From Alphaproteobacteria bacterium (GTDB taxonomy: Bacteria > Pseudomonadota > Alphaproteobacteria > Caulobacterales > Aquidulcibacteraceae): DNA of 39,652 nucleotides. Each line of letters opens with the position of its first letter. The first letter of the stretch is position 1. The notes below the pieces were generated by a model that was not told the origin of the DNA, did not search any database, and saw only the letters and a program-made list of their open reading frames with translations. Shown here piece after piece: positions 26,433 to 39,652 of this stretch. A program made the translations under genes and the position numbers. Location of the stretch: contig JAIXTH010000215.1 in assembly GCA_027484265.1 (NCBI GenBank), positions 1 to 39,652 on the forward strand, read 5' to 3'.

Positions 26433-27386
26433 TCAGTCCGCCACCACCAGCGTGAAGGGCACTGTGATGGTCTGCCCGCCCTTGCGGACCTGCAGGAACA
26501 GCCGCGTCGGCCCGGCTGCCTCCGGGTGCAGCTCGAAGGCGAGGACCGGGCCACCCCGGTCGGTCTCGCTGGCGGGCTCGGTGCCTTCGGGGTGGGCATG
26601 CAGCATGCCAGCTGATCCGGCGGGGAAGCCGACGAGGTGGGCATAGGCCCCCATGATCGGCTCCAGGCCTGCAAAGGGCTGGCCTGTACCGGCGTCGGTG
26701 ACGGCAATGGTCACCGGCACAGGCGCACCGGCCGTGGCCGCGCCGCCCAGGGACACCGCGAACGCAAGGCCTCCGGCTGTTGCGGTGAGCGACTGCCCGG
26801 CCCCCACCGGCGGGGCAGGTTCACCGCCGACAGCAAGCGGCGCCGGTACCACAACCGGTCCGCCGCCGTGATCGTGGCCCGCACCCTGATCCTGGCTGTG
26901 GCCATCGCCGTGGCCGTGACCTGCACCATGGTCATGCCCATGCCCATGTTCGTCCGCCGGCCTGGCCGCCCCTGCCGGCAGGTACTCGGCATGGACCGTG
27001 TAGGCGCGGGCGAAGCGCGGCGTGAATGTGACCGACCATGTCCCTGGCTCGGTCGCGGGTGTGGCATGGGCATGGGTGTAGTCCTCGAGCCCTGCGTCCA
27101 CGATCATGACATGGACCTTCTCGGTATGGCTCACGGCGATCGCATCCGGGCCCAGCGGGGTGCCGACGGCGTCCTTCAGGACCAGGGTGAGGGTCACCGG
27201 CTGGCCGGGTGCCAGCGCCCCGGCGGGCGTGACCGCCAGCGAGCCCGCCCCGGCGGCAACGGCTGGCGCGGCCCCGCCCGGGGTCGCTGTTGCGGCGGTG
27301 GACGGCGTGGAAGGGCCTTCGCCACAGCCGGACAGGGTCAGCACGGCAGCGGCAGTCAGGGTCAGGATCGTGGACCGGGTACGCAT
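26433..27386 (-). CDS. His-rich metal-binding lipoprotein with YtkA/Ig-like domains
   Basis: ATG 27386 shares a base with the stop of the RND pump gene (TGATG); the product is 317 aa. A lipoprotein signal (LTAAAVLTLSGCGEG) leads to an Ala/Gly/Thr linker. A first Ig-like/YtkA-like domain includes SHTEKVHVMIVDAGLEDYTHAH and FTPRFARAYTVHAEYLPAG. A striking His/Asp/Gly segment follows (HGHGHDHGAGHGHGDGHS, then HDHGGG). A second similar domain has LEPIMGAYAHLVGFPAG, MLHAHPEG and TRLFLQVRKGGQTITVPFTLVV. It is anchored in the envelope and probably buffers or delivers metal for the efflux pump encoded just upstream. The metal is not defined. Confidence 0.85.
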   Translation of the reverse strand: MRTRSTILTLTAAAVLTLSGCGEGPSTPSTAATATPGGAAPAVAAGAGSLAVTPAGALAPGQPVTLTLVLKDAVGTPLGPDAIAVSHTEKVHVMIVDAGLEDYTHAHATPATEPGTWSVTFTPRFARAYTVHAEYLPAGAARPADEHGHGHDHGAGHGHGDGHSQDQGAGHDHGGGPVVVPAPLAVGGEPAPPVGAGQSLTATAGGLAFAVSLGGAATAGAPVPVTIAVTDAGTGQPFAGLEPIMGAYAHLVGFPAGSAGMLHAHPEGTEPASETDRGGPVLAFELHPEAAGPTRLFLQVRKGGQTITVPFTLVVAD

Positions 27387-30300
27387 CAGAAGGCCTCCTT
27401 CACATCGCCCGCAGCGCGGGCCATCATCAGATCGGCGAGGGGCTTCCCGCCGAACAGCTTGAACAGGATCGGGGTGATCAGGGCGTCGAGCAGCGTGGCG
27501 GACAGGAGCCCGCCGAAGATGGTCACCGCCACCGGCTGCAGGATCTCCTTGCCGGGCTCTCCGGCCCCCAGCATCAGCGGGATCAGGGCAAGACCCGCCG
27601 CCAGCGCGGTCATCAGGACCGGGGTCAGCCGCTCGAGCGTGCCGCGCACGATCAGGGCCTCGCCAAAGGTCTCGCCCTCCAGCACCACCAGATTGATATA
27701 GTGGCTGATCTTGAGGATGCCGTTGCGGGCTGCAATGCCCGTCAGCGTGACGAAGCCGATCAAGGTGGCAACCGACAGCGGCAGGCCTGCGATCCACAGC
27801 GCCGCCACCGATCCCACCAGGGCCATCGGCACGCCGGCCATCACGATCAGCGCCAGTCGCGCCGACCGGTAACGGGTGTAGAGCAGGGCGAAGATCAGCG
27901 CGAATGACACGAGGCTGAGCCCGGCGATGGTGGCGCTGGCGGCGGCCTGCGCCTGGAACTGTCCCTCCAGCCGGGCAAATCCACCTGCGGGCATCGCGGT
28001 TGCCGCGATGGCCGCCTCGATCTGCCGGGTGATGGTGGTGAGGTTCGCGCCGGGGGCGAGATTGGCCTGCACCACGATCCGGCGCTGGCCATTCTCGCGG
28101 GCGATCTGGTTGGGACCGTCGGTCTCCCGAATAGTTGCCAGCGACGACAGCGGTACCGCGCCTTGAGGTGTCTCGATCAGGGTGTCGGCCAGCGCCTGCG
28201 TGGTGCGGGCATCGTCCGGCAGGCGGATCACCACCTCGTAGCGGCGCACACCGTCCGCCACGCTGGACACCACCTTGCCACCCGACAGGGTCGTCAGCGC
28301 CTCGGTGATGGCGACAGGACTGGCGCCCCAGGTCGCGGCCCTCCGGTAATCCACTTCCACATCGATCTGCGGCACCCGCACGATCCGCTCGACCCGGACG
28401 TCGACGAGGCCGGGGATGGTGGCCAGGCGGGCGCGCAATGCCTCGGCAGCGGTCCGGGCGGCATCGAGGTCCTCGGCGAACACCTTGACCGCCACCGGCG
28501 AGGTCACGCCCGACAGCATGTGATCGATCCGGTGCGCCAGCGGCCCGCCGATGCCGATGCTGGCTGGCAGCGGCGCCAGTGCCGCGCGGATGTCGGCCAT
28601 CACCCGGTCGCGCTCGCGCGCTGTCAGTCCGGATTCAAGCCGGATGTCGATCTCGTTGGTATGGACCCCTTCCACATGTTCGTCCTGTTCGGCCCGTCCC
28701 GTGCGGCGTGACACGCTGGCAACACCGTCGACTGTCAGGATCAGGCGCTCGGCCTGCGCCCCGATTCGCGCACTCTCGGCGAGGCTGATCCCCGGCTGGA
28801 GCGACACGCCGGCGACCAGGGTGCTCTCATTGAAGACTGGCAGGAAGGCGCGGGGCAGGAGGGCTGCACCCATCAGCGCCACCGCGACCGCCGCGGCTGC
28901 GGTGCCCAGGACCAGCCCGGGGCGCGCGAACCCCCAGCGCAGGGCTTGCGCGTTCCAGCCCTTGAGCCGCGATGCCAGCCAGCTGTCGCCCCGCCCTGTC
29001 GCCCGCGCCTGGGGCAGCAGCCAATAGCACAGCACCGGGGTGATGGTGAGCGAGACAACCAGGCTGGCGAGAATCGCCACCACATAGGCGATGCCCAGTG
29101 GCTGGAACAGCCGCCCCTCGATGCCGCTCAGGAAGAACAGCGGCAGGAACACCAGGATGATGATCAAGGTGGCATAGACGATACCCGAGCGGACCTCGCT
29201 GGTGGCGCGCGCGATCACCCCGAGCGCCGGCTCGGGGGCGGCCCGCGCTGCAGTCTCGCGCAGGCGCCGCGTGACATTCTCGACCCCGACGACCGCATCA
29301 TCCACCAGCTCCCCGACGGCGATGGCCAGACCGCCCAGGGTCATGGTGTTGATGGTGAGACCCATCGCCTGGAACACCAGCGCCGTGATCAGGATCGAGA
29401 GCGGCAGGGCCGCGAGCGAGATGGCCGTGGTGCGCACATTGAGGAGGAAGGCGAACAGCACGACCGCCACCACGATGGCCGCCTCGATGATCACCTTCCG
29501 CAATGTATCGATCGAAGCCTCGATGAAGTCGGCCTGGCGCATCTGGATGCGGTCGGCGCGGATGCCCTGCGGCAGGGTGGCGGTGATCTCTGCCAGCGCC
29601 GTCTCGACGGCACGTGTCACGGCGATGGTGTCGGCCCCCGGCTGTTTCTGGACCCCGATGATCACGGCGGGCTCGCCGCGATAGCCGGCATCACCGCGCC
29701 GGAAGCGCGCCGAGAAGTCCACTGTGGCCACCCGCGACACCGGCACCACGGCACCCGAACGGGTGGCGACCGGCAGCCCGGCCAGTGCCTCCAGCTGCGT
29801 GGTACGGGCCACGGCGCGCACCACGAACTCCTGGCCGTTCTGGTCCACGAAGCCGCCGCCCTCATTGGTGGCGAAACCCGTTACCGCGCGCTCGAGCGCT
29901 TCAAGGCTCACGCCCAGCTGCGCCATGCGGACCGTGTCCGGGGCGATGCGGAACTGGCGGACCTCCCCGCCGATCGGGATCACCTGTGCCACGCCGGGAA
30001 TGGTCAGCAGGCGCGGGCGGATCTGGAAGTCTGCGATCTCGCGGGCGAGCTTGGGATCGGTGTCGCCGAACGGGATCGCCACCAGCATGATCTCGCCCAT
30101 GATGGACGTGACCGGCCCCATCTGCGGGGCATGGTCGACATCGCCGATCGCCTCGCGCGCCAGTGCCAGCCGCTCGGACACCTGCTGGCGTGCCACCAGC
30201 AGGTCCGATGACCAGCCGAACTCGACATGGACGATCGACAGCCCCACCCCCGACATCGACCGCACCCGCTCGACGCCGGGTATGCCGCTCATGGCATTCT

Positions 30301-30508
30301 CCAGCGGCTGGGTGATCAGGGCTTCCACTTCCGGCGGAGCCAGGCCACCCGCCTCGGTCATCAGGGTGACAGTGGGCTTGTTGAGGTCGGGCAGGACATC
30401 CACCGGCAGCCGCAGGGCCGAGAGGGAGCCGAGCACCACCAGGATCAGAGCGGCACAGGCCACCAGCACGCGGTGCCGCAGCGATGCGCGGACAAGGGTG
30501 TCGAACAT
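27386..30508 (-). CDS. heavy-metal efflux RND pump (CusA/CzcA family)
   Basis: This 1040-aa inner-membrane pump is the usual length for HME-RND proteins. The N-terminus has TM1 and LPVDVLPDLNKPTVTLMTEAGGLAPPEVEALITQPLE. TM4 has GELVDDAVVGVENVTRRL with the proton-relay Asp pair. The C-terminal TM region shows TLIGFVTLTGIAARNGIL, GTLERLTPVLMTALAAGLALIPLML and FGGLLSATLLDALITPILF. All are typical of the heavy-metal branch rather than drug pumps. It takes metal ions from periplasm or cytosol through adaptor and outer-membrane channel. It is coupled at both ends by TGATG overlaps to the adaptor and lipoprotein genes. A csoR-like regulator suggests Cu/Ag, but Ni/Co/Zn remain possible. Confidence 0.95.
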   Translation of the reverse strand: MFDTLVRASLRHRVLVACAALILVVLGSLSALRLPVDVLPDLNKPTVTLMTEAGGLAPPEVEALITQPLENAMSGIPGVERVRSMSGVGLSIVHVEFGWSSDLLVARQQVSERLALAREAIGDVDHAPQMGPVTSIMGEIMLVAIPFGDTDPKLAREIADFQIRPRLLTIPGVAQVIPIGGEVRQFRIAPDTVRMAQLGVSLEALERAVTGFATNEGGGFVDQNGQEFVVRAVARTTQLEALAGLPVATRSGAVVPVSRVATVDFSARFRRGDAGYRGEPAVIIGVQKQPGADTIAVTRAVETALAEITATLPQGIRADRIQMRQADFIEASIDTLRKVIIEAAIVVAVVLFAFLLNVRTTAISLAALPLSILITALVFQAMGLTINTMTLGGLAIAVGELVDDAVVGVENVTRRLRETAARAAPEPALGVIARATSEVRSGIVYATLIIILVFLPLFFLSGIEGRLFQPLGIAYVVAILASLVVSLTITPVLCYWLLPQARATGRGDSWLASRLKGWNAQALRWGFARPGLVLGTAAAAVAVALMGAALLPRAFLPVFNESTLVAGVSLQPGISLAESARIGAQAERLILTVDGVASVSRRTGRAEQDEHVEGVHTNEIDIRLESGLTARERDRVMADIRAALAPLPASIGIGGPLAHRIDHMLSGVTSPVAVKVFAEDLDAARTAAEALRARLATIPGLVDVRVERIVRVPQIDVEVDYRRAATWGASPVAITEALTTLSGGKVVSSVADGVRRYEVVIRLPDDARTTQALADTLIETPQGAVPLSSLATIRETDGPNQIARENGQRRIVVQANLAPGANLTTITRQIEAAIAATAMPAGGFARLEGQFQAQAAASATIAGLSLVSFALIFALLYTRYRSARLALIVMAGVPMALVGSVAALWIAGLPLSVATLIGFVTLTGIAARNGILKISHYINLVVLEGETFGEALIVRGTLERLTPVLMTALAAGLALIPLMLGAGEPGKEILQPVAVTIFGGLLSATLLDALITPILFKLFGGKPLADLMMARAAGDVKEAF

Positions 30509-32403
30509 CAGCGCACCTGTGCCAGCAGACCGGCCCCGGTGGTCACGATCCGCTGTCCGGGGGACAGGCCGGCGGTCACCAGGACGCGGCCCGCATCCAG
30601 ATCGAGGATTGTCACGGGAACAGGCGAGACCCGCTCGGCGCTGTCCTTGACGAACACCAGTGCCTGGCCGTTCGGGCCGCGCACGACGGCCTCGCGCGGG
30701 ACCGCCAGACCGTCGACCGGCAGGGGGCTGCGGACAAACACGCTGACCGGCTCGCCGACCCGCAGGCCGATATCGCTCAGGATCTGGAACCGCACCGGCG
30801 CGGCGCCGTCGATCAGGGCAAGGCCCGCACCGAGGCGCGCCAGGTCAAAGGTGCGCCCGTCGCCGGTGCGGCCGGAAGCGCGGCTGCCCAGCCGCGCACT
30901 CACCGCGTCCGGTGCCTGCGCCTGCACCAGAAGCGCGCCGGGCTGGATGATCGAGAACAGGGTCTCGCCCGGCGCCACCACCTGACCCTGGGTGACGTTC
31001 ACCGCCGAAACCACACCCGACACCGGCGCCCGGAGTGTCTCGCGGGGCGAGCGCGCCGCGCGCAGCGCGGACTGGCGTGCGGACAGGGCGTGCGCTTCGG
31101 CGCCCGCCTCGCCCACAAGGGCTGCACGGCGGGCCTGCAGGGCCCGCACCCGCGCGTCGGCTTCGGCCTGCTGCGCGGCGATCCGGGCCTCGATGCCGAG
31201 CACATCGGCGCGGGCCGCCTCGATGTCCCGCAGGGGGACCACGCCGTCGAGGCGCTGGAGGCGCTCCAGCCGCTGCCGCGCGGCAGCCAGTCCGGCGCGT
31301 GCTTCCGCGGTCGCGCCGCCCGCCGCCAGGGCGCGAGCGGCCGCCAGCTCGGCATCCACTTCGCTGGCGCCGCCGGCCGCAAGGCGTGCAGCCCGCTGGC
31401 GGGCCAGCGCCAGGTCCTGGGCAACCTGTCCCTGCGCTTCGACGATGCCCGCAGTACCGGCTGCATCGAACCCCGGGGTCACGGTGGCAAGCGCCTGACC
31501 CTGCACGACCGCCTGGCCGAGGGCGGGAAGACGCCCCGACACGCGGCCCGCGACCTGCGCCTGCACCACGCCGGATGCGTTGGGGTCCGCGATCACCTGG
31601 CCGATCAGCGTGATGGCTGCGCCCGTGTCCCCGCTGTCGGTGATCACGATGGTGCGCAGGCCGATCAGGCGCTGCATGGCCTTGGGAGCTGCAATCACCC
31701 CGTCGGGCAGCCTGATGGCCTGATCGCGCGATGCCATCGCGGGGGCGCCGGCTTCGCTGCCATGGTCGTGGCCGGGGCCGGCCTGTGCGCTGTCGGGTGC
31801 GGTGGCTGCCGCGGCGGCCACCAGGACCGTGGCCAGCGTCGCGGCCGCTGCGGCGGCCCGCCGCCTGCGGAACAGGAGGAGCCCGCCCCCGGCCAGCAGC
31901 AGCGCCACCGCGCCACCGGCAATCCAGACGGCCCCGCCACCGGGCAGGCCATCGAGGAGCCCGCCCGCGGCATGGTCTGCATGTGCCGCGTCGATCACCA
32001 GCTGCGCCGACAGCAGGGCTGGCGCACCATCGCCGTCAACCGCGATCAGGACCGGATAGGTCCCGGCGCTTGCAGCTTCGGGCAGCGCCACCTGGTAGGT
32101 TCCGTCCGGCGTGGCCGCCACCGCGTCGATCCTGCGCGGCCCGATGGTGATGGTGAGCGTTGCGGCGGTCACCGGCTCGTTGGTGGCGAACCGGTCGAGC
32201 CACAGACGCAAGCCATCGTCCTCGACCCGGCCGACAAGCTCATAGACTTCGGTTGCAGCCTCGAAGCGGGGTGCTGCCGGCATCACGGCCCCGGTGGCGA
32301 CAGGGTCGGTGCCATGATCATGGCCGGGGCCGGCTGTGACGGGCTGGATGGCGAGGGCTGCGAGGATGGCGGCGGCGCAGACGCGCGTGGTGGTGCGGAT
32401 CAT
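30508..32403 (-). CDS. RND periplasmic adaptor with extra N-terminal domain and TM segment
   Basis: At 631 aa it is far longer than common adaptors (about 400). After a signal peptide comes GPGHDHG, a beta-rich domain (about 45-145, with LRLWLDRFATNEPVTAATLTI and YPVLIAVDGDG), then a TM segment (VWIAGGAVALLLAGGGLLLF) and a second hydrophobic stretch. GPGHDHG then appears again, as if two proteins were fused. The adaptor proper (about residue 230 on) has GQVIADPNASGVVQAQVAGRVSG, a long Ala/Arg/Glu coiled-coil hairpin (about 330-430), LRAPVSGVVSAVNVTQGQVV (lipoyl), and beta-barrel/membrane-proximal parts ending at GLSPGQRIVTTGAGLL. It overlaps the outer-membrane factor gene by 4 nt and the pump gene by one base. 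The repeated His motif may bind the exported metal. Confidence 0.9.
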   Translation of the reverse strand: MIRTTTRVCAAAILAALAIQPVTAGPGHDHGTDPVATGAVMPAAPRFEAATEVYELVGRVEDDGLRLWLDRFATNEPVTAATLTITIGPRRIDAVAATPDGTYQVALPEAASAGTYPVLIAVDGDGAPALLSAQLVIDAAHADHAAGGLLDGLPGGGAVWIAGGAVALLLAGGGLLLFRRRRAAAAAATLATVLVAAAAATAPDSAQAGPGHDHGSEAGAPAMASRDQAIRLPDGVIAAPKAMQRLIGLRTIVITDSGDTGAAITLIGQVIADPNASGVVQAQVAGRVSGRLPALGQAVVQGQALATVTPGFDAAGTAGIVEAQGQVAQDLALARQRAARLAAGGASEVDAELAAARALAAGGATAEARAGLAAARQRLERLQRLDGVVPLRDIEAARADVLGIEARIAAQQAEADARVRALQARRAALVGEAGAEAHALSARQSALRAARSPRETLRAPVSGVVSAVNVTQGQVVAPGETLFSIIQPGALLVQAQAPDAVSARLGSRASGRTGDGRTFDLARLGAGLALIDGAAPVRFQILSDIGLRVGEPVSVFVRSPLPVDGLAVPREAVVRGPNGQALVFVKDSAERVSPVPVTILDLDAGRVLVTAGLSPGQRIVTTGAGLLAQVR

Positions 32404-33683
32404 GGCAGCAGCCCCTGGGCCTGATTGAGATCGGAGATAGCGGCGGCGGCGCCCACGCGGGCGAGCACCAGGGTCCGCGCGGCTTCACCTGCAACGGCCC
32501 GTGCCCGCAGTTCCTCGAGGAACGAAAGCTCGCCCTCCCGGCTGCCGCGCGCTGTCAGCACCAGCACCTCCAGCGCTGCGGCATGGGCGGCCTCGGCCTG
32601 CCGCAGGGCCGCCCGTGTGGCGGCGAGGCGCGTGCGGGCCTGGCGGACGGCAGTCTCGAGTTCCAGTGCCAGCTGGCGCAGCCTCGCCTGCGCCTGTGCG
32701 CGCTCGACACCGATCCCGGCTGCCCCGGTTGCGGCCGACGGGTCAGGCCCGAAGGGCCGCGCAGCCCGGATGCCGGTGGACACGCCGAGGTCCTCACCCC
32801 GCATCCCTCGCTCGGTCCGCACGTCGATGCCGACCCGCCAGCGGGGATCAGCCGACCCGGCCGCCAGCGCCTGGCGGGTTTCGAGGGCCGCCAGCTCGGC
32901 CTGCGCCAGCGCCAGCCTCGGATGGAGGTCGGTGGCGGCACCCTCCATCTCGGCCCCCAGCTCCGGCGCCGGATCACCCACGAGGGCGATCAGCGAGAGC
33001 CGGGCCGCTTCCGCCTCGGCGGCGCTGGAGCCTGCCCGGCGGGCGGCGTCTGCAGCTGACAGTTCGGCGCGGTGCAGGTCCAGCCGCGCCATCTCTCCGG
33101 CCTCGACCAGCTGCGCGACCCGCGCCGTGGCCTCCGCCTCGATCCGGGCCAGCCCGGCATCTTCGGCTGCAATGGCGCGCGCGGCGGCATAGGCCCACCA
33201 GCGCGCCCTCAGGTCGCCGGCCGCCTCGACGCGCAGCACCGCCCGGGCCTGCCGCGCTATCTCGCCCCCGGCTCGGGCCTGCGCCCGCAACAGGTCACGC
33301 TCGCCGGGCCGCAGCAACGGTACCGTCAAGGCCAGTTCGGTCTCGGCCGCTCCGCGACCTGACCCGATCGTGTCCTGGCGCAGGCTGGCCTCGGCCTCGA
33401 CCGGTCCGGCGAACCGCGCCCGGCTGGCGCGGTCCAGTGCACTGGCCTGGCTCTGATAGGCCCCGGCAACCGGGCGCAGACCCAGCGCTTCCTCGGCAAG
33501 GTCCAGCGCCTCGGACCAGCCGCCGGCCAGTGGCTGCGCTTGTGCGGCAGACGGGGTGGTGCGCGCGTGCGAGAGGGCGGGCCCGGCGACAGACAGGAGC
33601 GCTGCCAGGATGGCCGTGGCAGCGGTGGGCGTGGATGGACGGCGCGGGTTGGGGCGCGTCGGGGCGCCATGGGACAGATACAT
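32400..33683 (-). CDS. TolC-like outer-membrane factor of the metal efflux system
   Basis: ATG 33683, with GAGG 8 nt upstream, gives 427 aa; the longer frame to 33803 crosses the intergenic hairpin. A signal peptide ends near ALSHA. The rest is Ala/Glu/Arg-rich helical repeat typical of outer-membrane efflux proteins: AEEALGLRPVAGAYQSQASALDRASRARF, then AETELALTVPLLRPGERDLLRAQARAGGEIARQARAVL, and its second-repeat counterpart ending AAAISDLNQAQGLLP. It would form the trimeric channel/tunnel for the adaptor and pump encoded downstream. Its stop overlaps the adaptor ATG (ATGA). Confidence 0.85.
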   Translation of the reverse strand: MYLSHGAPTRPNPRRPSTPTAATAILAALLSVAGPALSHARTTPSAAQAQPLAGGWSEALDLAEEALGLRPVAGAYQSQASALDRASRARFAGPVEAEASLRQDTIGSGRGAAETELALTVPLLRPGERDLLRAQARAGGEIARQARAVLRVEAAGDLRARWWAYAAARAIAAEDAGLARIEAEATARVAQLVEAGEMARLDLHRAELSAADAARRAGSSAAEAEAARLSLIALVGDPAPELGAEMEGAATDLHPRLALAQAELAALETRQALAAGSADPRWRVGIDVRTERGMRGEDLGVSTGIRAARPFGPDPSAATGAAGIGVERAQAQARLRQLALELETAVRQARTRLAATRAALRQAEAAHAAALEVLVLTARGSREGELSFLEELRARAVAGEAARTLVLARVGAAAAISDLNQAQGLLP

Positions 33684-33721
33684 GATCGTGCCTCGGGACA
33701 TGCGGATGACAGGGGGCTGCC

Positions 33722-33747
33722 CGCCAGACCCGGACCCGGGTCTGGCG
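33722..33747. repeat. 12-bp-arm inverted repeat inside the metal operon
   Basis: CGCCAGACCCGG-ac-CCGGGTCTGGCG is a perfect inverted repeat with a 2-nt spacer. It lies 16 nt after the His-rich gene and 38 nt before the outer-membrane factor start. It could attenuate transcription or protect the mRNA within the operon. Its right arm contains GGTCTGGCGCC, also present at 11009 and 20233. Confidence 0.65.
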
Positions 33748-33763
33748 CCAGCCGGCGGCTGTC

Positions 33764-34183
33764 TCAGCTTCGCGGCGGCTCGATCGGCGGGTGGATGTCG
33801 CACCCGCTCAGCGCGTCATCAGGCGGCAATCCACAGCGTGCCGGGCGCGGCACCGGCGGGAGCACTGCCGGCTGCAGGCCGTTGCCAGGCGCCCAGGCGT
33901 GAAAATGGAGACAACAGGCCGCGCACTGCCGGTCGCAGCCAGGCCCGTCGCAGCCAGGATGGTCCTGTCCGGCCTGGCCGTCAGGACCCGCAGTCCCGGC
34001 CCCATCCATCCCGGTGGCGGGTGCTTCATGCCCGGTGTGGGGGCAGGGGTCGCTGACCGGGGCGGCATCGTGGTGGTGCTCCATCAGCGCCGGTGGATGG
34101 CCGGGATGGGCGAGCGAAAGCCCCGGCGTCAGCACCAGTGCCGACGCCAGCACGATCCGGACGAGGGAGCGCAGCAGGGCCAT
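33764..34183 (-). CDS. small secreted His/Cys-rich protein
   Basis: ATG 34183 (139 aa) starts a signal peptide (LVRIVLASALVLTPGLSLAHPG). The mature protein has many possible metal ligands: HPGH, MEHHHD, PCPHTGHE, HPGCDGPGCDRQCAACCLHFHAW and CGL...GCDIHPP. No enzyme motif is visible and I do not recognise a named family with confidence. It is the first gene after the csoR-like regulator, and the CsoR-type operator lies 12 nt upstream of its start. A periplasmic metal-binding role is likely. Confidence 0.75.
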   Translation of the reverse strand: MALLRSLVRIVLASALVLTPGLSLAHPGHPPALMEHHHDAAPVSDPCPHTGHEAPATGMDGAGTAGPDGQAGQDHPGCDGPGCDRQCAACCLHFHAWAPGNGLQPAVLPPVPRPARCGLPPDDALSGCDIHPPIEPPRS

Positions 34184-34897: not shown

Positions 34898-35467
34898 TCA
34901 GCCCATGTGCTGGATGATGAAGGCGGCTGCGAGGATGTCGCGTTCCAGCGTCGGGGGCAGGCCGTCAGCGAGCTCGATGCCTGACTGGTCCATGGAAGCA
35001 ACGGTCCGGCCATTGATCCTGAACTGCCAGACCTGGCCGGCGTCCGGGGTGACCGTGCGGTCCAGCCGCACCGACGAGCCGGCGCCGTGCAGTGTGCCTT
35101 CGGCGCGGGCGCCGCCGGCCGTCCAGTTCAGCACCAGCCGAATGCCCGTATCGGCGCCGCGATAGCCGAACTCGCAGGTGACCAGCGCAGTCCCATCGCC
35201 GGCGACGGTATCGCGGCAATGCCCTGCCGCGCCGCCGCGGATGCCCTGCCCGCGCAGCCGGAACGAGGTCGCATCGGCATCCCGCGTGAAGGTGGCCTGC
35301 ACGACCTGGTCATAGCCGCTGGGTGTGGACCCTGCGGAGAACAGCACCTTGCTGCCGTCGGTGACTGGCGACGATGCGTGTGCCGGTGTGCCGGTCGCCA
35401 GCAGCGCGGCTGCGCAGAGCGGGACAATGGAGTGGAGAGGGAGGCGGGGGAGGGGAGGCAGTCTCAT
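34898..35467 (-). CDS. secreted hypothetical protein under SARP-box promoter
   Basis: ATG 35467 (189 aa) begins a signal peptide (MRLPPLPRLPLHSIVPLCAA, cleaved near AHASS). The mature protein appears beta-rich: KVLFSAGSTPSGYDQVVQATF, FRLRGQGI, CRDTVAGDGTALVTCEFGY with two Cys that may pair, VLNWTAGGARAEGTLHG, and VWQFRINGRTVASMDQSGIE. I do not recognise the family. Its promoter shares paired 11-bp boxes with that of the outer-membrane protein at 37860, so the two are likely co-regulated by the regulator gene lying between them. Confidence 0.75.
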   Translation of the reverse strand: MRLPPLPRLPLHSIVPLCAAALLATGTPAHASSPVTDGSKVLFSAGSTPSGYDQVVQATFTRDADATSFRLRGQGIRGGAAGHCRDTVAGDGTALVTCEFGYRGADTGIRLVLNWTAGGARAEGTLHGAGSSVRLDRTVTPDAGQVWQFRINGRTVASMDQSGIELADGLPPTLERDILAAAFIIQHMG

Positions 35468-35532
35468 GGCTTGATCGATCCTGTGTTGGCACGGACGTCC
35501 GGATGGGCGTCGCGCCACAGACCGATGCCGCT

Positions 35533-35567
35533 GCAGCGTTTGAATCGATGTTGGAGCCAGCGTTGGA
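35533..35567 (-). promoter_or_regulatory. paired boxes upstream of secreted-protein gene
   Basis: In the direction of transcription the first box is TCCAACGCTGG (35567-35557) and the second TCAAACGCTGC (35543-35533), starting 24 nt later. The near box ends 65 nt before the ATG at 35467. The same pair, with the same 24-nt period and orientation, precedes the gene at 37860. Confidence 0.6.
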
Positions 35568-35635
35568 TTGAAGCCTGAGACGGCGTTGCCGCCTTAAATA
35601 TGCGTCATGTTCGGGGGCGGTGCCGGAGCTGTCCG

Positions 35636-37681
35636 TCAGGTGCCGGTGCGATCCAGGCCGGCCTGCACGGCATCAAAGTAACGGGCGCGGCAGGCCGGGT
35701 CCTCGAAGGGCAGGGCCTGGATGGCCAGATTGCCGATCCCATCGGGATAGATGCCGAGGAAGCCCCGGCTCCTGTGGCGCAGCTTCTCATCCAGCCCGAG
35801 GCCCGCTGCCGTGGCGATCCCGGTCATCAGGGCTGACGGATGGGAATCGTCGCCCGCCAGCGCCAGCTCGATGAAGCGCTCGGCGTCCGCCAGCCGTCCG
35901 ACCATGAAATCCGCCATGGCCCGGCCCGACATCAGTCCGTTGGCGCCATAGGCGAGCGGGTTGAGCCGCTCCGCCCGGTCGAACATGGCATGGGCGCTGG
36001 CCCAGCCGCCTTTCATCGCATCCATCCAGCCGCCGCAGATCCAGGCGGTGTATTCATTCGGATTGAGTTCGATGGCGCGGTTGATGGCAGCCCGGGCCGG
36101 GCCAAACTCGTGAGCCATATAGAATAGCGCCGTGCCGGCTGTTGCCAGGGTGCGCGCATCATCCCGGCCGATCCGCAACGCCTGCCGGCTCATGTCTGCG
36201 AAGCGCGCGAGGTCTGCCCGGGAGGCTATCCGGTTGGCATAGGCCGCGGCCCAGGGCGCAAAGGCGAGGGCCTGATGCAGCCGCGCGTCCAGGGCAATGG
36301 CCCGCTCGAGCAGGTCCAGCGCGCGGGCATAGTCGCGGCCCTCCAGACTGAAGCCTGCATACAGGGCCTGGAGATAGAAGTCGTATGCGGCCGGGTCGGT
36401 CGTGGGCCGATCCGCACGTGCCTTCACAGCCTCTTTCTGGGCTCTTGGCTCGACTTCCACCGCCAGGCTGGAGGCTGCCTGCTCCTGAAAATCCCAGAGG
36501 TCATCGAGCCTGCCTTCGATGTCGCCCACCGAGAGAATCCGGCCCGTCCGCCCCTCCAGCACACGCCAGCGCATCCGCAGCCGCCCGTCGCCGCTGGCGG
36601 CCAGGCTTCCGCCCACCAGCACATCGGCACCCACAGCGTCGGCGATGGCCACCGGGTCTTCCAGCTGGCCGGCCAGGCGGTCAGCCGAGGCATGGCTGAG
36701 GACGATCAGGGAACGGAAGCGCGAGAGGGCGTGGGTCAATCCATCCGTGAAGCCGGCCGGGATGTGGGCCGGCAGGGGTGTGCCGCTGAGGTCGGTCAGG
36801 GGCAGGACGACGACAACCGGCTTGACGGCGGGCTCGGTGGTCATGGCCGTGTCAGGGCTGTCCCTGAGATGCGCCGGAGCCCGCCCGTCGGGAACCTGCG
36901 CGCTTCCGGTGGCATCCGCTCCGGAACCAGCCGGACCGGTCTTGCCCGCGGAGGTCCGCACCAGGGGCGGCCTCGCCGGATTGCGCAGGCCAGCCCGCAG
37001 CGCGGGACTGGCTGACAGGCCCAGCTCCCGCAGCGCGCGCTCGCCGATCGTGGCCGCCTCGATCGCCTCGTCGCGCCGCCCGGACAGAACCAGCGCCTCG
37101 ATCAGCCGGGCGTGCACCGCTTCCTCCTGCGGCTCCACCAGCCGCCAGCGCTGCAGATAGGGAACCTGCCGCGCCGGATCGCCAGCCAGCTGCCGGACCC
37201 GCCCGGCAAGGAGCCGTGCCTCCAGTCGCGCAAGGTCCTGGCGCCAGCCCGACAGCCAGGTGCTGTAGTCCAGCCGGTTGGGCAGGTCGGCATCTTCCAT
37301 CAGCTGGTCCTGCAGCAGGGCAAGGCACGCATCGATGCGCGCCGGGTCCAGCGTGTCCTCCGGCTCGGCACCAGTGGTGAGGACGTCCAGCACATCGACC
37401 GTGACGCCATCCGGCACGAATGCCAGCTGGTCGCGCTCGGCGCGGATCCGGATGGTGCCATCGGCATCCAGCAGCTGCCGCAGCTTGTGCAGGCTCCAGC
37501 GCAGGGCAGCGCGCGGATCGTCGGGCAGGTCGAAGAACAGGTCACAGAGCCGCTGACGCGATACCGGGCGCGGCGACAGCACCAGATAGCCGAGGATCGC
37601 CCGGGTCTTGCGGGAGGCGGGCAGCGGCAGATCCTGGCCGTCCCGTTCCGCCGCCATCATCCCGAGCAGGCGCAGTTTCAT
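35636..37681 (-). CDS. SARP-like regulator: winged helix - BTAD - TolB-like - TPR
   Basis: A 681-aa protein; ATG 37681 has GGGGAG upstream. Residues 1-95 form an OmpR-type winged helix (LRLLG, ASRKTRAILGYLVLSP, SRQRLCDLFFDLPDDPRAALRWSLHKLRQLL). A bacterial transcriptional-activator (BTAD) helical domain follows (about 96-240, DYSTWLSGWRQDLARLEARLL, LVEPQEEAVHARLIEALVLSGRRDEAIEA). After a linker, a TolB-N-like domain begins at KPVVVVLPLTDLSG (about 288-420, with ADVLVGGSL and LWDFQEQAASSLAVEVEP). A TPR-type array ends the protein. There is no receiver or transmembrane domain, so the signal is probably sensed by the TolB/TPR half. It lies between two divergently placed envelope-protein genes with shared promoter boxes, its likely targets. 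Confidence 0.88.
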   Translation of the reverse strand: MKLRLLGMMAAERDGQDLPLPASRKTRAILGYLVLSPRPVSRQRLCDLFFDLPDDPRAALRWSLHKLRQLLDADGTIRIRAERDQLAFVPDGVTVDVLDVLTTGAEPEDTLDPARIDACLALLQDQLMEDADLPNRLDYSTWLSGWRQDLARLEARLLAGRVRQLAGDPARQVPYLQRWRLVEPQEEAVHARLIEALVLSGRRDEAIEAATIGERALRELGLSASPALRAGLRNPARPPLVRTSAGKTGPAGSGADATGSAQVPDGRAPAHLRDSPDTAMTTEPAVKPVVVVLPLTDLSGTPLPAHIPAGFTDGLTHALSRFRSLIVLSHASADRLAGQLEDPVAIADAVGADVLVGGSLAASGDGRLRMRWRVLEGRTGRILSVGDIEGRLDDLWDFQEQAASSLAVEVEPRAQKEAVKARADRPTTDPAAYDFYLQALYAGFSLEGRDYARALDLLERAIALDARLHQALAFAPWAAAYANRIASRADLARFADMSRQALRIGRDDARTLATAGTALFYMAHEFGPARAAINRAIELNPNEYTAWICGGWMDAMKGGWASAHAMFDRAERLNPLAYGANGLMSGRAMADFMVGRLADAERFIELALAGDDSHPSALMTGIATAAGLGLDEKLRHRSRGFLGIYPDGIGNLAIQALPFEDPACRARYFDAVQAGLDRTGT

Positions 37682-37764
37682 GGCCCGACAACTCCCCAGG
37701 TGCCCGCTCTGGTATCTGTCCCGTCGCGTGCCGTGGCTGCGCTTCTAGCCGAATTCCACGCGAT

Positions 37765-37799
37765 TCCAACGCTGGTTCTCCCGCTCGGTCCAACGCTGG
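37765..37799 (+). promoter_or_regulatory. paired boxes between SARP-like regulator and outer-membrane protein
   Basis: TCCAACGCTGG occurs twice (37765-37775 and 37789-37799), 24 nt apart, ending 60 nt before ATG 37860. A tandem ATTCCA (37753, 37763) overlaps the first box. The site is also 84 nt upstream of the regulator's own start, so autoregulation is possible. Confidence 0.65.
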
Positions 37800-37859
37800 C
37801 CACGCAGAGGGTGATTGCGGGCGGCGGAGAGGCCGCTGCCTCGGCATGGAAAGACAACA

Positions 37860-38456
37860 ATGAAAACCTCCCTTCTCTTCGCAGCCAGCACGGCTGCAAT
37901 CTTGAGCTTTGCGGCGCTGCCTGCTCTGGCACAGAGCTTTACCGGCCCCTCCATCGGGGTCGAGCTGGCAACCGAGGATCTCGGCAGCACCGACGGCACC
38001 ACCGCCACTGTGGTGGCTGGCTGGGACCTGGCTGTGGCGCCGGACTGGCGGGTTGGTGCCAGCCTGCGCTGGACCGTGGCCGATATCGAGGAAAGCCGGA
38101 CCGAGGCCGTCGGCACCAATTTCCAGGACATCAGCGTTTCCATCGAGAACCGCCGCGGCGTCACCACGCGCATGGGTCGTACCCTGGGCGACCGGTGGAT
38201 GGTCTATGCCGAGCTTGGCTTCGAGCAGTATGACGTCGATGCCCGGCGGGTTCTGCGGGCCCCCGCCTGCGTGCCCCCCACGGCTTGCGTGATCTCGCGG
38301 CTGGATGCGTCGTTCGATGAATCCATGACGTCGCTGGGCGTCGGCGTGGAGTGGGCTGTGACAGATCAAGCCCGCCTGCGCGCCAGCGTCAGCCGCGGCG
38401 AGAGCGACGCCTTCGACCGCAACCGCCTGTCCGTCTCGGCGGCCTGGCAGTTCTGA
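37860..38456 (+). CDS. outer-membrane beta-barrel protein (porin/OmpA-like fold)
   Basis: ATG 37860, after GGAAAGAC, gives 198 aa. A clear signal peptide (MKTSLLFAASTAAILSFAAL, cleaved after ALAQ) precedes alternating beta-strands: SIGVELATEDLGS, TTATVVAGWDLAVAPDWRVGASLRW, GVTTRMGRTLGDRWMVYAELGFEQYDV, TSLGVGVEWAVTDQARLRASVSRGES. It ends in LSVSAAWQF, the terminal Phe expected for BAM-assembled barrels. A loop carries two Cys (PACVPPTACV). About eight strands fit an OmpA/Opa-like small barrel. Function is unknown; it is a likely target of the adjacent SARP-like regulator. Confidence 0.85.
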   Translation: MKTSLLFAASTAAILSFAALPALAQSFTGPSIGVELATEDLGSTDGTTATVVAGWDLAVAPDWRVGASLRWTVADIEESRTEAVGTNFQDISVSIENRRGVTTRMGRTLGDRWMVYAELGFEQYDVDARRVLRAPACVPPTACVISRLDASFDESMTSLGVGVEWAVTDQARLRASVSRGESDAFDRNRLSVSAAWQF

Positions 38457-38525: not shown

Positions 38526-38606
38526 CCCCCCGCCTCTGTTCCGCCCGAGCCTGATCCCATGTCCCAGTCCCCCACCCGCCGTTGCCGCGCAAACGAGGCA
38601 GGGAGC

Positions 38607-39652
38607 GTGGCTCAGACCGTGACGCGCCGTTCGGTGATCGCGGCCGGCAGTGCCTGTCTGGCAGGATGCGTCACGTCGCACCGGCCAGCGCAGGCCTGTG
38701 CCCTGACGGTGCCCGAGGCCTGGTCCGGCTCTGTGATCGCCCGTGAGGGAGAGCGGCAGGCCACCTCTGTCCGCGGCCTCGTCCATGCGGACGGGCCACC
38801 CGTCAGCCTGGAAACCCGCTTCAATATCCTGTCCCTGGGCAAGATGATGACGGGCGTCCTGATGGGCCAGCTTTTCGAGGGCGGGCATCTGCGCTTCACC
38901 GATCCGGTCCGGGCGCACCTTCCCGATCTGCCGGAACACATCGGCTCGCTCACCGTGGGCATGCTCCTCGATCACACCAGCGGGCTTGGCAACTACATCG
39001 AGGCCTGGAACTTCGCGGCCATCGCAGCGGCGCGATCGGCAACCCGGCTGCTGCCGTTGGTCCTCGCGGGGTCGCACACCGAGCCGGGTCCGATTGTCTA
39101 TTGCAACAGTGGCTATCTGCTGGCGGCAGCCGTGATCGAGCGTGTGACGGGGCAGACCTATGCAGACATCCTCGCCACGCGTGTTTTCCGCCGCTGTGGC
39201 ATGCGAGGCGCGGGGCTTGCCGTGCAGGACACCGACGCCCTGCCCGACCTGGCACGGTCCGCACGTGCGGCAGGACAGACCGTGGCCGCCATCCTGCCAG
39301 GTGGCCCGGCCGGGGGCGCGTTCATGTCAGCCCAGGACCTGATGCGCTTTGCCGACGCGCTGCTGGCGGGCCGGCTGGTGTCGCCAGCCGTGCTGGCTGT
39401 GATCGCCAGCATCCAGGCCGAGCGGCCGGGCGCCCCGGTCGACGGGCTGCGGCGCGGGTGGGGGTACGGCTTTGGCGTGACCGGGGAGGGGCCGGGCCGA
39501 TCCATCGGCCACACCGGCGGGCTGCCCGGCCTCAGTGCTGCCTGCCGGATGAATCTCGGTACAGGGCGCAGGGTCGTCGCCCTGTCGCATCAGGATATGG
39601 TGGACGCCGCTCAGGTCTCGCGCGACATCATGATGCAGACAGGGCTCTGCAG
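38607..39652 (+). CDS. beta-lactamase-family serine hydrolase lipoprotein, C-terminus cut by window edge
   Basis: The frame is open from ATG 38559 to the right edge; I favour GTG 38607, which has GAGG 8 nt upstream and begins MAQTVTRRSVIAAGSACLAGC. That is an RR-containing signal with a lipobox (LAGC). The class C beta-lactamase/DD-peptidase motifs are visible: SLGK (SxxK, in RFNILSLGKMMTG), YCNSGY (YxN) and GHTGG (in place of KTG). Also present are LLDHTSGLGNY and GWGYGFGV, common in this family. The true substrate (peptidoglycan, beta-lactam or other ester/amide) cannot be told. At least 348 codons are present and the end is missing. Confidence 0.85.
   Translation, partial: MAQTVTRRSVIAAGSACLAGCVTSHRPAQACALTVPEAWSGSVIAREGERQATSVRGLVHADGPPVSLETRFNILSLGKMMTGVLMGQLFEGGHLRFTDPVRAHLPDLPEHIGSLTVGMLLDHTSGLGNYIEAWNFAAIAAARSATRLLPLVLAGSHTEPGPIVYCNSGYLLAAAVIERVTGQTYADILATRVFRRCGMRGAGLAVQDTDALPDLARSARAAGQTVAAILPGGPAGGAFMSAQDLMRFADALLAGRLVSPAVLAVIASIQAERPGAPVDGLRRGWGYGFGVTGEGPGRSIGHTGGLPGLSAACRMNLGTGRRVVALSHQDMVDAAQVSRDIMMQTGLC

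Follow-up and report, generated by a model that had tools for sequence, protein, structure and literature searches.

SARPs are, to our knowledge, known almost only as antibiotic switches of Streptomyces. They bind DNA as side-by-side dimers and activate transcription, and their usual, though not defining, location is within the antibiotic gene cluster that they control. EmbR of Mycobacterium tuberculosis, which combines a SARP-type wHTH-BTAD half with an added sensor domain, is linked to envelope genes. In the described SARP-binding sites the repeats are spaced by 11 or 22 bp, and the one on the 3' side lies 8 bp from the -10 element; large SARPs have C-terminal control domains that include TPR (PMC10936776). 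The locus analyzed here suggests that an AfsR-type protein half and promoter geometry also occur in alphaproteobacteria, where they are joined to a TolB-like/TPR sensor and appear to be aimed at envelope genes. An uncultured proteobacterium thereby probably uses a switch of the antibiotic-activator type for an outer-membrane protein and a secreted protein.

The window is the whole analyzed stretch of 39,652 nucleotides from an alphaproteobacterial assembly of 3.07 Mb that is 87% complete. It contains a 681-aa regulator located between genes for a secreted protein and an outer-membrane beta-barrel (Table 1). The wHTH followed by BTAD that characterizes SARPs was recognized in the regulator by Pfam, with BTAD above the cut-off, and by an AlphaFold model (pLDDT 88, below 50 in the linker 237-284). 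Foldseek aligned residues ~1-250 with AfsR in an initiation complex (8k60_J, TMt 0.68), and also with AfsR 8hvr and EmbR 2fez, TMt 0.49; a profile of three regulator orthologues matches AfsR in the PDB (E 1.4e-4). The TPR region is below the curated Pfam cut-off but clear in the model. The TolB-N-like domain (AF2 pLDDT 91) resembles TolB 4pwz (Foldseek E 3e-7, TMq 0.62), and its members weakly match FlgO, TolB_N and LpoB in Pfam. The domain order given in the earlier note, winged helix, BTAD, TolB and TPR beside a barrel gene, was thus borne out by Pfam, the model and Foldseek.

Table 1. Predicted features of the regulator locus in the window
Feature	Positions	Strand	Details
Secreted protein, 189 aa, candidate target	34898..35467	-	signal peptide by eye
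Predicted -10 of secreted-gene promoter, CATCGG	35522..35527	-	A at +11, geometry as at barrel promoter
Secreted-gene operator (predicted)	35533..35567	-	TCCAACG 35567-35561, TCCAACA 35555-35549, TCAAACG 35543-35537; 12+12 bp triple
SARP-type regulator, 681 aa	35636..37681	-	wHTH + BTAD 1-235; disordered linker 237-284; TolB-N-like 285-425; TPR about 430-678
TolB-N/FlgO/LpoB-like domain, residues 285-425, predicted cytoplasmic	36407..36829	-	AF2 + Foldseek
wHTH-BTAD half (DNA-binding/activation, predicted), residues 1-235	36977..37681	-	44-46% identical in orthologues
Barrel-gene operator (predicted)	37754..37799	+	TTCCACG 37754-37760; TTCCAACG 37764-37771; degenerate middle unit 37776-37788; TCCAACG 37789-37795
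Predicted -10 of barrel promoter, CAGAGG	37805..37810	+	A at +11 after last AACG
Outer-membrane beta-barrel, 198 aa, main target (predicted)	37860..38456	+	Pfam OMP_b-brl 7e-13; conserved two-cysteine segment
Serine beta-lactamase/D-aminopeptidase-like protein	38559..39652	+	Pfam Beta-lactamase 9.5e-45; reaches contig end

In the window regulator the TolB-N-like domain replaces the NOD of AfsR, whereas EmbR has FHA in place of TolB-N/TPR; the likeness to EmbR is drawn from the protein alone, not from the operator. HilA/EilA-type regulators share the arrangement of a DNA-binding head and a TPR tail, but the head of the window regulator is a BTAD-type SARP, and the HilA/EilA NCBIfam equivalog, whose cut-off is 589, reached only 14.9 bits over part of the TPR. 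The sensor half shares the N-terminal domain fold of TolB/FlgO/LpoB/CsgG-type envelope proteins. In contrast to TolB, it has no export signal and no beta-propeller, TPR helices follow the domain, and the whole appears to be a cytoplasmic fusion to a DNA-binding head. Since neither a signal peptide nor a membrane segment was found in the regulator, its sensor half is most likely cytoplasmic; with the domain also being frequent among the other proteins that these genomes encode, the earlier proposal that this half senses an envelope state is not supported.

The box TCCAACGCTGG occurs exactly at 35557-35567(-), 37765-37775(+) and 37789-37799(+), whereas the fourth box, TCAAACGCTGC at 35533-35543(-), has two mismatches to it, so that calling the boxes identical was too strong. 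The period of exactly 24 bp at both sites, the equal orientation relative to the flanking genes and the distances of 65 nt to the ATG at 35467(-) and 60 nt to the ATG at 37860(+) were all confirmed on the sequence. On their own the boxes are no commoner than chance would give: allowing up to 2 mismatches yields 16 matches where 16.6 are expected. The 24-bp pair with up to 3 mismatches has two occurrences in the 3.07 Mb assembly, each of them in the window (none for the reversed control), and TYMAACGC-N16-TYMAACGC without mismatches gives the same two sites only. The pairs proposed in the earlier note are therefore present, but they belong to larger elements whose further half-sites had been missed: direct-repeat arrays of TTYMAACG with 3-4 half-sites at steps of 11, 12 or 24 bp. 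An extra GGCAACG with a weak half-site score is located at 35580-35591(-), ~23 bp upstream of the secreted-gene operator. A PWM built from 31 half-sites of other genomes, with the window sites excluded, puts these two arrays at the top of the window with 29.7 and 29.1 bits; among 100 resampled windows the maximum is 21.7. The window boxes are real and best read as SARP operators.

The same arrays recur in front of SARP genes throughout the order and the class and in one myxobacterium, and about half of the SARP loci have no array. In the cultured Sphingobium boeckii DSM 25079 (L051), a SARP/methyltransferase pair has four half-sites. In the upstream regions of 28 SARP loci outside the window, [CA]AACG was counted 48 times in the target sense and 5 times on the opposite strand (shuffle mean 19.9, maximum 33), in a comparison partly guided by the window, where the motif was first seen. 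The AACG spacings at these loci peak at 11-12 bp (15 pairs), 24 bp (7) and 35 bp (5). Another 18 loci were drawn almost entirely from beyond the order, mostly from the wider class, with one myxobacterial and one deltaproteobacterial record. In this second set, 8 loci have between them 16 pairs spaced by exactly 12 bp (shuffle mean 0.35, maximum 3); here the half-site was widened to [CA][CA]ACG after inspection of those sequences, which makes the shuffle comparison somewhat generous, and neither comparison is fully blind. The direct repeats of SARP type suggested earlier thus recur at orthologous and paralogous SARP loci. Their steps of 11, 12 and 24 bp agree with the spacing of known SARP sites if the 12-bp step is taken as a variant of the 11-bp rule.

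Could the boxes serve some other DNA-binding protein or a sigma factor? EcfG-type promoters have the consensus GGAAC-N16/17-CGTT, and the opposite strand of the boxes does present GGA and CGTT, placed ~15-17 bp apart by the 24-bp period. However, the spacing and the -35 misfit this consensus, and promoters of this kind would be directed away from the secreted gene, with no gene ahead of them, on which geometry the EcfG promoter reading was rejected. Any such factor is also at variance with arrays that track SARP genes, including those with 12-bp spacing only and a myxobacterial one, and that are missing at barrel genes without a SARP. We consider this explanation very improbable.

The SARP reading is further consistent with the promoter geometry. 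All ten arrays of the first locus set have an A at +11 after the last AACG (P 2e-7 per column), as do 7 of the 9 in the second set and the two window operators. Position +11 is where a -10 element has its most conserved base, and the invariant A is as expected for a -10 element at the SARP distance, the inferred -10 starting about 9-10 bases past AACG, or 8 bp past the 8-base unit TYMAACGC, in line with the ~8 bp of known SARPs. A consensus sigma-70 scan returned no site, and both -10 hexamers are poor matches to TATAAT, which suits activator-dependent promoters yet weakens the promoter call. The wHTH+BTAD fold, the repeats one or two helical turns apart and the fixed short distance from the last repeat to the -10 element are shared with AfsR and other Streptomyces SARPs; the window regulator differs in being proteobacterial, in its half-site TTYMAACG, and in the dominance of 12-bp rather than 11-bp steps.

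The direction of these elements also bears on whether the SARP binds them chiefly for self-control, by autoregulation or repression, with the effects on the barrel and secreted genes being incidental. As such self-control would have it, arrays accompany SARP genes in many genomes, and the divergent region of the window has one at 72-84 bp from the regulator start. Yet only the secreted gene lies in front of the second array, which has no SARP start nearby and keeps its orientation and +11 A toward that gene. In 10/10 arrays the -10-like A is also found on the side of the target. Self-control as the main role is therefore quite unlikely.

Comparison across loci brings out the arrays, their phasing and orientation, the -10 geometry, the association with SARP genes and the fold. 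We consider it likely that the regulator is a large SARP that activates both the barrel and the secreted genes from repeat arrays under the control of its TolB-N-like/TPR half. Its wHTH-BTAD half would bind direct repeats head-to-tail, namely the TTYMAACGC repeats with 11-12 bp steps before the two genes, and would recruit RNA polymerase to weak promoters, much as AfsR does, thus activating both. The cytoplasmic TolB-N-like/TPR half, on its flexible linker, would gate this activity via a ligand or a partner protein. Binding, activation rather than repression, and gating by the sensor are what we infer.

A single-sequence search of the genome contigs with P0001 gave no relative, and an alignment query was needed. 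Full-length regulator orthologues were identified in four MAGs: L046 (Sphingomonadales MAG Ga0077559), L047 (Sphingomonadales MAG D8_00024), L050 = G013 (MAG REEB506) and L048 = G006 (MAG RI_43). In L046, L047 and L050 the regulator has a homologous barrel gene as its divergent neighbour. The divergent regions contain five half-sites at 12, 11, 12 and 12 bp (L046) or three half-sites at 11 and 24 bp (L047 and L050), and the barrel-gene operator of the window aligns with these three arrays. The fourth locus, L048, has a TolB-type regulator without a barrel and one half-site only. Because the boxes are missing in G223 and G278, where a 35% identical barrel has no SARP neighbour, they can be said to travel with the SARP and not with the barrel. 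The recurrence of the boxes at orthologous loci, on which the earlier note had made its proposal depend, was therefore found for the barrel promoter, together with their absence from two barrel homologues without a SARP neighbour. The conserved unit, as judged from three other genomes, is the divergent regulator/barrel pair with its operator; the three-gene module described earlier is not conserved as such, the secreted gene having been seen as a target in this lineage only.

In L046, L047 and L050 the barrel gene is followed on the same strand by genes for a small protein and a lipoprotein, the latter ~52% identical among the three; these sets (L046:498-1578, L047:3961-5010, L050:4016-5043) have no Pfam family. 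The secreted protein of the window is not claimed as a homologue of this lipoprotein (BLASTP E 0.002 in one comparison, hhalign probability only 5.8%). The barrel gene of G013 (L050:5250-5836) has a frame change near its 3' part and is split into two frames, by an assembly error or as a pseudogene; MAG assemblies may hold errors.

The secreted protein (P0002) has, by eye, a signal peptide, in agreement with its earlier description, but no Pfam or NCBIfam family. Since no clear orthologue was identified and none was found beside a SARP, the gene looks like a second predicted target in this lineage only. For the barrel gene, three orthologous loci support its role as a target; for the secreted gene the evidence is its own array. 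This array might be a chance occurrence or a relic copy, with the barrel gene as the sole real target, given that no orthologue of the gene was found near a SARP and that the middle half-site is degenerate. Its PWM score of 29.67 bits, in contrast, is the top score in the window and above all 100 resampled windows, and it is one of the two perfect 24-bp pairs in 3.07 Mb. Because the bases between its half-sites differ from those of the barrel operator, it does not appear to be a recent copy, and it keeps the +11 A. We regard a chance or relic origin as unlikely, though not negligible. The earlier claim that the regulator controls both genes is supported in that both sites are most likely bound by the SARP next to them and that the barrel array is present in three orthologous loci, while the secreted-gene site has no orthologous locus. 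Predicted control of both flanking genes is, on these sequence comparisons, well supported.

The serine hydrolase gene starts 102 bp past the barrel gene on the same strand and is possibly part of the barrel operon. Because the other candidate sites examined in this genome are within long open frames and have no +11 A, the visible regulon appears to consist of two promoters, those of the barrel and secreted genes, the former perhaps also serving the serine hydrolase; with the genome 87% complete, further targets may be absent from the assembly. A CusA/CzcA-type RND efflux set (permease, adaptor and outer-membrane factor) is located downstream of the secreted gene (27386-33803, minus strand). 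With a barrel, a secreted protein, a serine hydrolase and an RND efflux set as its flanks by Pfam and NCBIfam, the regulator is not in an antibiotic cluster, and its predicted targets differ accordingly from those of Streptomyces SARPs.

The sensor half appears to have its own history. The SARP of L046 (L046:2367-5594) has two tandem TolB/TPR modules in one protein of 1075 aa. In the tree, the window sensor groups with the second of these modules (100/99), and the sensors of L047, L050 and L048 with the first. The window sensor is 62-63% identical to this module B, its closest relative, but the DNA-binding halves are only 45% identical. The simplest reading is that the sensor was exchanged through a two-module intermediate while the operator was kept, the direction of the exchange being inferred.

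No description of alphaproteobacterial SARP operators was found in the literature searched, which left subscription journals outside its scope, and the operator code is apparently undescribed. We see an even chance that proteobacterial and myxobacterial SARPs share one code, TTYM(A/C)ACG with 12-bp steps and a constant distance to the -10 element, and make up a wide class of local activators, so far unstudied, with swappable sensors (TolB-N/TPR, alpha/beta-hydrolase and others), in which the window regulator would represent a sensor swap via a two-sensor intermediate with the operator retained. Such an operator rule would make the targets of many unstudied SARPs readable from sequence alone. 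One perfect pair with 12-bp spacing, in the genome of L046, was discarded, as it lies within an argininosuccinate-lyase-like frame.

SARPs with other C-terminal halves, often alpha/beta-hydrolase by eye, occur in the order, and their upstream regions carry the same arrays. One such family, with an alpha/beta-hydrolase-like C-terminal half (by eye) and the same operator arrays, is represented by L041, L042, L043 and L057-L077. Several alpha/beta-hydrolase-type SARPs are divergent from genes that by eye encode sterol-desaturase-like, methyltransferase, P450 or small secreted proteins.
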